Positions 29,184 to 38,807 of a DNA stretch of 64,000 nt are shown here, piece after piece (the first letter of the stretch is position 1; each line of letters opens with the position of its first letter). Position numbers and translations under genes: made by a program. A model generated the notes under the pieces. That model saw only the letters and a program-made list of their open reading frames with translations, was not told the DNA's origin and ran no database searches. The stretch comes from Fibrobacter sp. UWB10. Its GTDB lineage: Bacteria > Fibrobacterota > Fibrobacteria > Fibrobacterales > Fibrobacteraceae. The DNA lies in the NCBI RefSeq assembly GCF_900182935.1, contig NZ_FXUE01000001.1, positions 62,001 to 126,000 on the forward strand. Direction: 5' to 3'.

Positions 29184-29936
29184 TTAATTTCCTGAGATTT
29201 CCTTAGCCTTCGCCTCGATTTCGGCGATGGCTTTTTTGCGTCCTTCAGCAGAGTCTTCGTTGTTCAGCACAATGTTCACAAACACGGAGCCCGCGACCAC
29301 GGCGTACACGTGCTTGCTAAGCACTTTAGACTGTTCGCCATTACGGATACCGAAGCCGCCGAGCACTTTTGCGCCACCCTTACCGACGGTGTCGATAAAG
29401 TCAAGCGTTGCCTGGTCAATCGTCGTTTCGCTACCGGTCGTACCTGCGCGGAGTGCGGCGTAGATGTACTTGAAGCCTTTGGAAGCCATCGCTTCGAGGC
29501 GTTCCTTGGTCATGCTGGGGGCCGCCACCGGAATGTTTTCGAGGCCGTGCTTCTTGCAAGCTTCAGTCAGACCTTCGTCACCGTCGAACGGCAAATCCGG
29601 AATGATGCAAGCGGAAACGCCCACGTCCTTGCACATCTTGACGAAGTTTTCGACGCCTGGCGTAAAGGCGAGCGAGCCGTAAGTCATAATGTAGATGGGC
29701 GTTTCGGGGTGACGTTCGTGAATCTTCTTCACGATTTCGAGGCCCTGCTTGGTAGAATAGCCCTTATCGAGAGCAATGGTCGATGCCGTCTGAATGGCCG
29801 GACCGTCGGCACTCGGATCACTGAAGGCAAGCTGGATTTCAAGGATGTTGGCGCCACCCTTCACAAGTGCGTCGGCGATAGCGATAGAAGTTTCTGCGTC
29901 AGGAAAACCCGCAATAAGATGAGACATTAAGTTCAT
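29184..29936 (-). CDS. trpA: Tryptophan synthase alpha chain
   Basis: The 250-residue protein carries the TrpA catalytic pair Glu33 and Asp44, spaced 11 residues as in E. coli (Glu49, Asp60), in the ILEIQLAFSDPSADGP segment, plus the IPDLPFDG strand and the GFGI phosphate loop. It cleaves indole-3-glycerol phosphate to indole, which tunnels to TrpB. The family usually reads LELGVPFSDPLADGP, so the IQLAFSDPS variant is slightly unusual but catalytic residues are kept. It follows trpB by 9 bases and completes the pathway encoded over 29-39 kb. Confidence 0.95.
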   Translation of the reverse strand: MNLMSHLIAGFPDAETSIAIADALVKGGANILEIQLAFSDPSADGPAIQTASTIALDKGYSTKQGLEIVKKIHERHPETPIYIMTYGSLAFTPGVENFVKMCKDVGVSACIIPDLPFDGDEGLTEACKKHGLENIPVAAPSMTKERLEAMASKGFKYIYAALRAGTTGSETTIDQATLDFIDTVGKGGAKVLGGFGIRNGEQSKVLSKHVYAVVAGSVFVNIVLNNEDSAEGRKKAIAEIEAKAKEISGN

Positions 29937-29945
29937 AGTGATTAC

Positions 29946-31217
29946 CTACTTATTCATAATTTCCGCATCGTGGATGTCTTCGTTGTTTTCGAGGCGAACA
30001 AGTTCCGCCTTCAGGAATTCCTTCCACTTTTCGGGGCGGAACACCGGACTCGTGATAAAGATGTCCTTGTCGCCGCGGCCACTCATATTGATGACGAGCG
30101 CCTTGTCCTTCGGAAGTTCCTTCGCAATCTTCATGGCGGCGGCGCCAGCATGAGCGCTTTCGAGAGCAAAGAGAATGCCTTCATTGCGGGCAAAGAACTT
30201 CACCGCTTCCAAGGCTTCCTTGTCGAGAATCGCGGTGAATTCCACGCGGCCAGATTCGCCGAGGGCAGCGAGCTGCGGGCCGATTCCCATGTAGTCAAGG
30301 CCCGCCGAGATGGAACGAGTCGGCAGCGACTGACCGTCTTCATCAATCAGGAAGCGGCTCTTGTAACCCTGCAGAATGCCTTCGCGGCTCGCGTTACCCG
30401 TCATGCGGGCAGCGTTTTCTCCCTTGTTCGGGCCGATGCCACCGGCTTCGGCACCAATCAAGCGCACATTCTTGTCTTCGATAAACGGAGTGAATACGCC
30501 GATAGAGTTGCTACCGCCACCCACGCAAGCGACCACGGCAGCGATGTCGATGTTGCGTTCAGCGGCCTGGCGCTTGACTTCTTCACCGATAATGGACTGG
30601 AAGGTACGAACAATATCCGGGAACGGAGCCGGACCGAGAGCAGAACCGAGCACATAGTGGGTGTTCTTGAAATTCGTAGCCCAGTCGCGCATGGCTTCGT
30701 TCACGGCGTCCTTAAGGGTGCGGGCACCGCTCGTGACCGGCACGACCTTGGCACCGTACATTTCCATGGTCGCCACATTCGGCTGCTGGCGACGAACGTC
30801 CACTTCGCCCATGTAGACAACGCATTCGAGGCCGAGCTTTGCGCAGGCTGCTGCGGTGGCAAGGCCGTGCTGACCGGCACCCGTTTCAGCGATAATGCGG
30901 GTCTTGCCCATCTTCTTCGCCAAAAGGCACTGACCGATGGCGTTGTTGATCTTGTGGGCACCGGTGTTGGCAAGGCCTTCAAGCTTGATGTAAATCTGTG
31001 CGCCACCCAGAAGTTCCGTTGCGGTCGGAGCGTAATACAGCGGCGTTTCGCGGCCAATGTAATCACGCTGAATAATGCGGAGCTCTTCGAGGAATTCCGG
31101 ATCGTGGATGTACTTGTTGAAGGCCGCTTCGAGGTCGTCGAGCGGACGACGGATGATTTCGGCAACATACTTGCCGCCGAACTTGTCAAAGAAACCGTTG
31201 TTTGAAGAAGTAGTCAT
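29946..31217 (-). CDS. trpB: Tryptophan synthase beta chain
   Basis: The 423-residue protein has the PLP lysine Lys89 in NTGAHKINNA, the catalytic Glu in IIAETGAGQHG and the phosphate-binding GGGSNSIG loop. It condenses indole with serine to make tryptophan. It is the first structural gene after a leader with three Trp codons and an attenuator hairpin, so its transcription should rise when charged tRNA-Trp runs low. trpA follows directly. Length and sequence fit the standard TrpB1 type. Confidence 0.96.
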   Translation of the reverse strand: MTTSSNNGFFDKFGGKYVAEIIRRPLDDLEAAFNKYIHDPEFLEELRIIQRDYIGRETPLYYAPTATELLGGAQIYIKLEGLANTGAHKINNAIGQCLLAKKMGKTRIIAETGAGQHGLATAAACAKLGLECVVYMGEVDVRRQQPNVATMEMYGAKVVPVTSGARTLKDAVNEAMRDWATNFKNTHYVLGSALGPAPFPDIVRTFQSIIGEEVKRQAAERNIDIAAVVACVGGGSNSIGVFTPFIEDKNVRLIGAEAGGIGPNKGENAARMTGNASREGILQGYKSRFLIDEDGQSLPTRSISAGLDYMGIGPQLAALGESGRVEFTAILDKEALEAVKFFARNEGILFALESAHAGAAAMKIAKELPKDKALVINMSGRGDKDIFITSPVFRPEKWKEFLKAELVRLENNEDIHDAEIMNK

Positions 31218-31253: not shown

Positions 31254-31290
31254 AAAAAATTAAAGGCCTTCGGTGAGTCCGAAAGCCTTT
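31254..31290 (-). terminator. Attenuator hairpin of trpBA
   Basis: On the minus strand AAAGGCTTTCGG (31279-31290) pairs with CCGAAGGCCTTT (31262-31273) around an ACTCA loop, then a T-rich run follows. It lies between the Trp-codon leader and trpB and ends 37 bases before the trpB start. Confidence 0.85.
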
Positions 31291-31323
31291 TACAAACACT
31301 TGATGAAATCAGCAAAACGGACT

Positions 31324-31380
31324 CTATTTAGTAGAGCCCCACCACCAACGGTTGAAACGGATTGCTGAATTCATCTTCAT
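31324..31380 (-). CDS. trpL: Trp leader peptide of trpBA with three tandem Trp codons
   Basis: An 18-codon ORF reads MKMNSAIRFNRWWWGSTK, with Trp at residues 12, 13 and 14, far beyond chance for a rare residue. Its 3' part forms an alternative stem over the Trp codons and stop (GGCTCTA with TAGAGTCC), and the terminator hairpin follows about 35 bases later. This is the arrangement of a ribosome-stalling attenuator: starvation for Trp stalls the ribosome on the WWW codons and lets transcription continue. The start may also be the third codon, also ATG. A promoter ends 7 bases before the ATG and there is no Shine-Dalgarno site. Confidence 0.85.
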   Translation of the reverse strand: MKMNSAIRFNRWWWGSTK

Positions 31381-31387
31381 ATGCACT

Positions 31388-31422
31388 AATTTAGGAATGT
31401 CTCTTTAATGTGGCAAGGGGTT
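31388..31422 (-). promoter_or_regulatory. trpBA promoter with AACCCCTTGCCA block
   Basis: On the minus strand AACCCC-TTGCCA (31411-31422) holds the -35 TTGCCA. A 17-base spacer leads to TAAATT (31388-31393), which ends 7 bases before the leader ATG. The same 12-base block occurs at the trpE and lysR promoters. Confidence 0.6.
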
Positions 31423-31428
31423 CAGCTT

Positions 31429-31464
31429 AAAAAAAGTGAAGACTCTCGATTATCGAGAGTCTTC
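31429..31464 (-). terminator. Terminator hairpin after the non-Trp leader ORF
   Basis: A perfect 12-bp stem, GAAGACTCTCGA with TCGAGAGTCTTC (31438-31464 on either strand), has a short loop. An A run at 31429-31435 gives seven T residues on the minus strand. It lies 28 bases after the leader ORF at 31493-31558, the spacing of an attenuator. Confidence 0.8.
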
Positions 31465-31492
31465 CTTTAAACACTTGATGAAATGGCAATGC

Positions 31493-31558
31493 CTAAATCC
31501 CTTCTTTGAGAACCTCGTCGATAGCGGCGCTAGCGTCAAAGCGGATTGCCAATTTCAT
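31493..31558 (-). CDS. Leader-like ORF without Trp codons, upstream of the trpBA leader
   Basis: A 21-codon ORF starts MKLAIRFDAS and ends DEVLKEGI. Its first codons resemble the trpBA leader (both have GCAATCCG at the same place), and both are followed by the identical 16 bases ATTTCATCAAGTGTTT before a terminator hairpin, so the two leaders look paralogous. It has no Trp; the run Ala-Ser-Ala-Ala-Ile replaces the Trp codons. It is either a decayed copy of the Trp leader or a second attenuator sensing something else. A consensus promoter precedes it by 12 bases. Translation is not proved. Confidence 0.45.
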   Translation of the reverse strand: MKLAIRFDASAAIDEVLKEGI

Positions 31559-31570
31559 CTTTATGTCTTC

Positions 31571-31599
31571 AATATATATACTAATTCGTTGTCTGTCAA
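31571..31599 (-). promoter_or_regulatory. Near-consensus sigma70 promoter upstream of the non-Trp leader
   Basis: On the minus strand TTGACA (31594-31599) and TATATT (31571-31576) are separated by 17 bases, the best promoter match in the window. Only the leader ORF and its terminator lie between it and the trpBA leader. Confidence 0.7.
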
Positions 31600-31677
31600 T
31601 AGGTTAGCGCAAGATTTTTGTAAAAATTTCTTTCATAATTTGTACAAAAAGACCTAAATTCGGCCATTTGGGCTATT

Positions 31678-33192
31678 TTACGAAAGAGCCGCAAACAACG
31701 CCTTCAGTTTTTCACTGTTTTTGATTCCGGGGGCATCTTCGACACCGCTGGAAACATCGACGAGTTCCAGGTGGAACTTTTGGACAATCGCGCCCACATT
31801 TTCAGGCGTGATGCCGCCAGCAAGCCAGAGAGGGATATCCCCCGCTTTTTCGCGGAGCAGGTTTTCGGGAATGGTCTTGCCCGTGCCGCCAGGGATTCCT
31901 TCGACTTTGGCATCTAAGAGAATGCGTGGTTCACCATTCTTGCGGAGAGCGGTCACCTTATCGAAATCGGATTCTTCGCCAACGCGGGCGGCACAATAGT
32001 ATGCAAAGTCAGCATTTTTCGGTTCAACGCCGTGAAGCTGGACTGCATCGAGCACGCCTTCTTTGGCAAGCTTGATAGCGGTTTTGCCTTCAACGGATTC
32101 GGGATCGGTGATGACGCCAACAAGGAGCGGAGATCCTTCGACTCCGTTTGCACTGCGCTCAGGATGACACTCGCGAATCTTTTCGGCAAAACTGCGCACG
32201 AATTCTTCGGTAGTCAAGCGCTTGGTGGTGCTGAATACAAAGCCGAGCATGTCGGCGCCGAGTTCAGCAGCCAGCTTACCATCTTCGTCGCGAGTAATGC
32301 CACAAATTTTAACGAGCGGGCCCGCCTTTTTGGCAGCCTTGCGTTCTGCAAACTTTTTCCAGAACTTGCCGCGGGCATTTTCTGAGCCCGATTCAAATGC
32401 GCCTACCACTTCTTTAGCAAGCGGCGGATTCTTGGCAACGGCCTCGCCCACCAGGATTCCCGTGAAGCCAAGGTTGCGGGCATAAGTCGCATCGGCCGGG
32501 CATAAAATTCCAGATTCAAAAACAGCCTTGGCCGGAAGTTTGCTACGCACCGACGCCGGCACCAGCGGGTCCGTATGGAAGGTCGCCAAATCGCGAGAAT
32601 TCACGCCCGCGACAATGGTCTTGGCAGCAGATTCGCCAAGGGCTTCGGTCACGACTTTCAGCTTGCGCAAGTCATCGACTTCGCGTACTTCGACAAAGGC
32701 CTGCATGTCAAAAGACTGTGCACGCTTCGCCATCTTCACAAGCTGATTGTCTTCTAAAATACGAGCAATCAAGAGCACCGCATCGGCACCGCAACGGTAA
32801 GCGATATCGATTTCATCTTCAAACAAGAGAAAATCTTTGCGAAGTACGGCGCAGGCATGCAAGCCCTGCTTGCGACGGCGTTCCATCAAGTCGGCAACCG
32901 CAATCAAATCGCGCAGCGAGCCTTTAAAGAAATTACCTTCGGTAAGCACCGAAACCGCCTGCGCATGGGCCTCGGCATAAGTCGTCGCCAGCGCCACCGG
33001 ATCCAAATCCGGCGCAATGTCGCCCTTCGAAGGCGATGCTCGCTTGACTTCAAGAATCGCACCGGCGTTCCCAAGAAATTCGGTATGACCGCCACGGCGT
33101 TTTTCGGGAATTTCAATTCCGAAATTCAAACCCAACCGCGAAATATCTTCGCGGCGCATACGTACGATTTTGGCTAAAATGTCTTCGCTCAT
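31678..33192 (-). CDS. trpCF: Bifunctional indole-3-glycerol phosphate synthase / phosphoribosylanthranilate isomerase
   Basis: The 504-residue fusion joins a TrpC barrel (residues about 1-265, with ILEVKRASPSKG, LRKDFL and GVNSRDL motifs) to a TrpF barrel (from about residue 290, with VKICGITR near its start and the general-acid region VDVSSGVED near its end). The two activities perform consecutive steps from phosphoribosylanthranilate to indole-3-glycerol phosphate. A 13-residue insert, CHPERSANGVEGS (342-354), interrupts the TrpF half in frame and comes from a repeat element. The start overlaps the transporter stop by ATGA. Confidence 0.93.
   Translation of the reverse strand: MSEDILAKIVRMRREDISRLGLNFGIEIPEKRRGGHTEFLGNAGAILEVKRASPSKGDIAPDLDPVALATTYAEAHAQAVSVLTEGNFFKGSLRDLIAVADLMERRRKQGLHACAVLRKDFLLFEDEIDIAYRCGADAVLLIARILEDNQLVKMAKRAQSFDMQAFVEVREVDDLRKLKVVTEALGESAAKTIVAGVNSRDLATFHTDPLVPASVRSKLPAKAVFESGILCPADATYARNLGFTGILVGEAVAKNPPLAKEVVGAFESGSENARGKFWKKFAERKAAKKAGPLVKICGITRDEDGKLAAELGADMLGFVFSTTKRLTTEEFVRSFAEKIRECHPERSANGVEGSPLLVGVITDPESVEGKTAIKLAKEGVLDAVQLHGVEPKNADFAYYCAARVGEESDFDKVTALRKNGEPRILLDAKVEGIPGGTGKTIPENLLREKAGDIPLWLAGGITPENVGAIVQKFHLELVDVSSGVEDAPGIKNSEKLKALFAALS
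32131..32169 (-). repeat. In-frame 39-base repeat insertion inside trpCF
   Basis: The minus strand reads TGTCATCCTGAGCGCAGTG at the left and GGAGTCGAAGGATCT at the right of this 39-base unit, encoding CHPERSANGVEGS. It resembles the widespread TGTCATCCTGAGCG...GAAGGATCT intergenic repeat seen in many bacterial genomes. Removing it would join IRE to PLLVGVI, the expected TrpF strand. Confidence 0.65.
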
Positions 33193-38750: not shown

Positions 38751-38807
38751 TTAGAGTCCGCGCCACCAACGACGGTTAAGGGTTGCTGTAGTCACAAAAT
38801 TCATCAT
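38751..38807 (-). CDS. trpL: Trp leader peptide of trpE with two tandem Trp codons
   Basis: An 18-codon ORF reads MMNFVTTATLNRRWWRGL with Trp at 14 and 15 just before the stop. Downstream, GGACTCTA pairs with TAGAGCCC over the stop codon, and then the terminator hairpin follows, as in classical trp attenuators. Stalling at the Trp codons would favour readthrough into trpE. Like the trpBA leader it lacks a Shine-Dalgarno sequence and starts 7 bases after the promoter -10, so it is probably translated from a leaderless message. Either of the two ATG codons may be used. Confidence 0.85.
   Translation of the reverse strand: MMNFVTTATLNRRWWRGL

Follow-up and report, generated by a model that had tools for sequence, protein, structure and literature searches.

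In Fibrobacter sp. UWB10, the tryptophan leader of trpBA (trpL) is preceded by a duplicated trp-leader element that we name El1, and this element is probably the gene of a stand-alone non-coding RNA of about 135 nt. It lies within a stretch of 64,000 nucleotides analysed as a whole (the window), where every feature described here is on the minus strand. The gene order is trpCF (31678-33192, with IGPS and PRAI domains), El1, trpL, trpB (29946-31217, Pfam PALP) and trpA (29184-29936, Pfam Trp_syntA); TrpB has its nearest named relatives in Fibrobacter genomes. Transcription of El1 is predicted to yield a discrete RNA that starts near 31564 and ends near 31429. After the duplication it would have shed the start codon, the Trp codons and the antiterminator, and retained a promoter of its own, the closing stem, a single-stranded tail and the terminator. 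The initial annotation saw here a duplicated attenuator that had lost or changed its specificity, and offered two outcomes: serial attenuators on one operon, or a short stand-alone RNA. The duplication of a trp leader and the loss of its Trp specificity stand, the tandem leader peptide does not, and the second outcome is the one best supported by El1's promoter, terminator and genomic context.

El1 has the two elements expected of a small RNA gene, a promoter and an intrinsic terminator of its own, both recognised by their sequence signatures. The strong, near-consensus promoter TTGACA-17-TATATT, correctly annotated at the outset, occupies 31571-31599 and agrees with the consensus at 11 of 12 positions. 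We extracted 58 El1 copies, some genomes being counted twice as they are present in two collections. All 58 carry TTGAC[A/T] and TATATT at a spacing of exactly 17 nt, a constancy that is partly by construction, as the copies were extracted with a -35/-10 pattern similar to TTGACA/TATATT; one additional copy, at locus L115, has a decayed -10 hexamer. Just upstream, a conserved footprint (31600-31624) stands out by the low entropy of its columns in 49 El1 promoters; it is made of two blocks, TTTACAAAAA at 31624-31615 and TAACCTA at 31606-31600, and flanked by columns of 1.5-2 bits. The promoter spacer (31577-31593) is likewise conserved across the 49 copies, as CAA.GA.TTA. Together, the two blocks and the spacer look like a UP element or a regulator site.

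The predicted transcript start is an ATA triplet (31562-31564), whose position matches that of the 5'-terminal ATG of trpL. At this position all 58 copies have ATA, GTA or ATT, and never ATG. At the other end, the strong terminator with seven T residues described initially is present at 31464-31429, with a 12-bp stem (31464-31438) followed by T7 (31435-31429). The sequence of its stem varies between species yet stays paired.

trpL has a promoter separate from that of El1, TTGCCA-17-TAAATT (31388-31416), with the same layout in relatives. Its reading frame (31324-31380, MKMNSAIRFNRWWWGSTK up to the stop codon) is apparently leaderless. The peptide is conserved across El1-bearing genomes, where it retains AIRFNRWWWGS or VIRFNRWWWGS. 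In all genomes examined the [AG]TG of Fibrobacter trpL sits 6-8 nt behind the -10 hexamer, and the trp leaders of this genus appear to be leaderless. The true trp attenuator spans 31262-31324: an antiterminator, formed by GAGTCCG (31324-31318) and CGGACTC (31281-31275), is set against a terminator at 31290-31262. A second Trp leader, MMNFVTTATLNRRWWRGL, is found ahead of trpE at window position 38768 (leader about 38870-38680, minus strand); it has a TTGCCA/TATTTT promoter, a terminator and a comparable closing stem, with no El1 alongside.

On the evidence of common sequence and common fold, El1 and trpL are homologous. The start region GCAATCCG and an identical 16-nt stretch, ATTTCATCAAGTGTTT, which the initial annotation assigned to both leaders, are indeed found in both, and the 15-mer TTTCATCAAGTGTTT has just two sites in the 3.48-Mb genome, one in each leader. 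A genome-wide repeat family built on the El1 15-mer was considered and rejected: 21 near-matches compare with 16 for the reversed control. Ten El1 sequences were then used to build a covariance model, which was run on 80 congeneric genomes. In almost all genomes with both elements this model matches El1 and trpL, at E values of 1e-25 to 1e-5; made of El1 only, it reaches trpL at 1e-13 to 1e-5. Beyond these it gives two matches in the 80 genomes, at E 0.4-1, and none in 10 other genera of the family. It is because a model built on El1 picks out both elements, and almost nothing besides, that we regard them as homologues. Fibrobacter trpL shares with El1 the homologous 5' segment, the closing stem P1, CAUCAAGUGUUU, the position of the terminator and the distance from promoter to 5' end. 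Unlike trpL, El1 lacks a 5' start codon, Trp codons, a conserved ORF and an antiterminator.

By nucleotide search, 51 of the 80 Fibrobacter genomes have a match, which for most of these genomes is a complete El1, as a rule in single copy. Outgroup Fibrobacter genomes have no El1, and their trpL has a closing stem of different sequence. Since a closing stem is also carried by trpL in these El1-less outgroups and by the trpE leader of the window, we infer that P1 is older in trpL and that El1 is the derived copy. On the trpB tree, which is poorly resolved, five genomes devoid of El1 (G003, G009, G019, G065 and G071) are scattered among those that have it, and losses of El1 are likely. Two loci labelled as El1-negative on this tree, L138 and L140, belong to genomes that carry El1 elsewhere (contigs L139 and L129).

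Both RNAs fold far more stably than shuffled sequences (z = -6.8 for El1 and -5.2 for trpL), because in each of them the 5' end (GAUGAA...GCAAUCC) pairs with the segment located 5' of the terminator (...UUUCAUC), forming P1. Chance does not account for El1, given this fold and its recurrence in about 50 of the 80 genomes. The arms of the El1 stem, GATGAAATTGGCAATCC (31543-31559) and GGCATTGCCATTTCATC (31477-31493), were placed by folding and by comparison of arm pairs. They form 15-17 bp in all 29 distinct arm pairs, with a U-A to C-G change between two clades; covariation is modest, both sides having changed in 3 of the 26 pairs of the whole structure in the window's clade. The interior of El1 (31494-31542) is variable, with two hairpins in the window's clade and one long hairpin in the other. 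A three-way junction, which fits the former, was therefore dropped as the fold of the whole family, and only P1 is claimed family-wide because the interior differs between clades. The clades were analysed separately, as a joint MAFFT alignment misaligned the 3' half. Next to the 3' arm of P1 lies AAGUGUUU (31469-31476), common to El1 and trpL, with an unpaired probability of 0.99 and nearly invariant among El1 copies; the CAUCAAGUGUUU of trpL (31294-31305) is identical to that of El1. El1 is structured and has a recurrent fold, as Rfam families do, but it matches none of them: no family of release 15 reaches its gathering cut-off in the window, and sub-threshold or relaxed matches are at chance level.

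This degree of conservation bears on the idea that El1 is a decaying, functionless relic of a tandem duplication. Its coding part has been lost and some close relatives lack it, as a relic would have it; however, the promoter hexamers and their spacing, P1 and the tail are maintained in about 50 genomes while the flanks vary freely, and we find decay a very improbable account.

The 21-codon ORF reported at the start exists in the sequence (ORF 1, ATG to TAG, 31558-31493), and we judge that it is not a gene. Conservation of its frame and control codons in other Fibrobacter genomes had been proposed as a check, and neither these nor its start and length turned out to be conserved. Relatives start with ATG or GTG (GTG in one clade), the frame runs for 2, 9, 15, 18, 21, 27 or 29 codons or stays open, and at locus L090 a single-base deletion shifts it. 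Because frame, length and start codon all vary, El1 is not, as judged by this comparison, a tandem leader peptide.

We also looked for an antiterminator, scoring the pairing of the terminator 5' arm with upstream RNA against shuffled arms, with trpL as positive control. None was found in El1 (mean z = -0.19, 0 of 40 below -2), as opposed to a mean z of -2.60, with 71% below -2, for trpL in the same arm-duplex test, a result in line with its GAGUCCG/CGGACUC pairing. El1 thus has neither the conserved leader ORF nor the antiterminator of an attenuator. The serial arrangement envisaged initially, a second ribosome-mediated attenuator whose ORF 1 would sense another amino acid, draws on the promoter, short ORF and terminator that adjoin a real attenuator, and on a weak pairing that TATCGACGAG can form in the window with the terminator sequence CTCTCGATA. 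Against it, ORF 1 and its codons are not conserved and the terminator arm has no excess pairing to upstream RNA. We reject serial attenuation, as extremely improbable, because there is no antiterminator and because El1 persists beside convergent or DHH-family genes, which in several genomes lie directly downstream.

The neighbourhoods of El1 are indeed diverse. In most genomes, the window included, it stands directly upstream of trpL-trpBA, and it is often 50-120 nt downstream of trpCF. Some copies are retained 0.6-1.6 kb away from trpL, and El1 also recurs without trpCF upstream. A convergent gene ends 59-127 nt downstream of El1 at L116, L118 (first copy), L126, L127 and L131. In about 11 copies the gene directly downstream is a same-strand member of the DHH family, which is found further down in others; by its domains, this DHH/DHHA2-family gene is pyrophosphatase-like. 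In such surroundings El1 could control trp genes in cis either not at all or only in an indirect way. A same-strand gene that El1 could regulate in cis is missing downstream of five copies, and trpL-trpBA follows in the window and most others. Locus L118 has two complete El1 copies (1261-1383 and 2015-2137), which lie about 750 bp apart. A convergent lipoprotein-like gene faces the first copy, and the second precedes a DHH/DHHA2 gene. At L088, L091, L092, L093 and L109, the T tract of the El1 terminator is degenerate (TTTCTTATATTT) and runs into the TATATT-6-ATG with which a DHH-family gene begins; the terminator and a leaderless gene start may therefore overlap there.

These contexts weigh on two further cis-acting readings. 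El1 could be a peptide-free, riboswitch-like regulator, with a ligand controlling its terminator and giving trpBA a second input; it is, after all, a structured RNA immediately 5' of a terminator, mostly directly upstream of trpL-trpBA. We hold this to be quite improbable: antiterminator pairing is absent, the interior fold differs by clade, and El1 is kept at 0.6-1.6 kb from trpL or next to convergent genes. Alternatively, El1 could be a boundary device only, a trpCF terminator with an accessory promoter leaking into trpBA, much as the initial annotation allowed that it might simply end trpCF transcription. Its frequent position shortly after trpCF is in favour, and the terminator would halt readthrough from that gene. 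That reading is nevertheless improbable. The recurrence of El1 at sites that lack an upstream trpCF shows that it is not simply the terminator of that gene; both P1 and the single-stranded AAGUGUUU are conserved far beyond the needs of a terminator, and a trpCF terminator would have no use for the promoter that El1 keeps.

A role in trans is plausible for the stand-alone RNA, short of being likely. The part of El1 that makes contact would most likely be the unpaired tail with the 3' arm of P1, the module common with trpL, so that El1 would act through this arm and CAUCAAGUGUUU. It might pair with the same mRNAs as the released trpL RNA, or compete with trpL for a common binding partner. The trpL tail reads AAGUG[U/C]UU at 42 of 42 loci of El1-bearing genomes and at none of 7 El1-less loci, where AAGAGAUU occurs four times, along with three other sequences. 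This pattern suggests that selection acts on the trpL tail only in the presence of El1, and so hints at a coupling of the two elements. The association amounts to few independent events, given the poorly resolved trpB tree, and it could also come from shared ancestry of the El1-less lineages or from gene conversion between the neighbouring copies.

As for mRNA partners, no conserved target of El1 was found among the start regions of the window or, for the trpE site described below, across El1-bearing genomes. Among the window's start regions, the shared segment finds no better match than shuffled segments do, and the top-scoring start region was that of a spurious ORF, which runs antisense to a nuo-like region. 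Along the trp sense strand there is one further perfect 11-nt complement to the El1 tail, in trpE (37604-37594). We do not claim it as a target: in about 16 of the 40 El1-bearing genomes where the site is readable, a CTG or CTA codon interrupts the complement, and the site is also partly constrained by the TrpE motif EHLM.

These observations leave room for a variant in which the stand-alone El1 has no mRNA partner and acts by titrating a factor that recognises the P1/AAGUGUUU module in the trp leader. The module is common to both RNAs, trpL conserves it only in the presence of El1, and the failure to find a conserved mRNA target fits as well; on the other hand, no factor of that kind is known, and the ancestry or gene conversion invoked above could explain the association. 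Such a decoy is unlikely in itself, and about as compatible with the data as mRNA pairing.

Trans activity of released attenuator RNAs is known from at least one bacterium, and one can seldom see how a dedicated small RNA gene originated. In the case of trpL and El1, dozens of related genomes have the parent next to its offspring, and their losses and rearrangements can be compared. The comparison reveals which parts El1 shed and which it kept, and the passage from attenuator to trans-acting RNA becomes directly testable. The rnTrpL of Sinorhizobium meliloti, which is leaderless and starts at its AUG, destabilises trpDC mRNA in trans once released (PMC7298713). Like El1, it is derived from a trp leader (PMC7298713), but it is what the attenuator itself releases on termination, and it still codes for the peptide, whereas El1 would be a separate and permanently non-coding gene. 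By analogy, El1 may correspond to a released attenuator RNA that has become dedicated and non-coding. The full scenario, in which duplication turned an attenuator into the gene of a dedicated non-coding RNA, co-evolving with the parent leader and adjusting Trp synthesis in trans, is one we hold only tentatively, as rather doubtful; if true, it would provide a worked example of small RNAs arising from attenuators. Our literature search found no paper linking Fibrobacter with trp attenuation and none describing the El1 RNA, which appears restricted to one genus, stands outside Rfam and has a putative function.

Two loci depart from the usual arrangement in another way. In genome G022 (L142), El1 and trpL are both absent and trpB follows the trpCF stop codon after about 30 nt, so that Trp attenuation of trpB seems to have been lost. 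In G079 (L085), El1 is intact and a deletion took the -10 hexamer and start of trpL; unless this is an assembly error, trpB would rely there on readthrough from El1.
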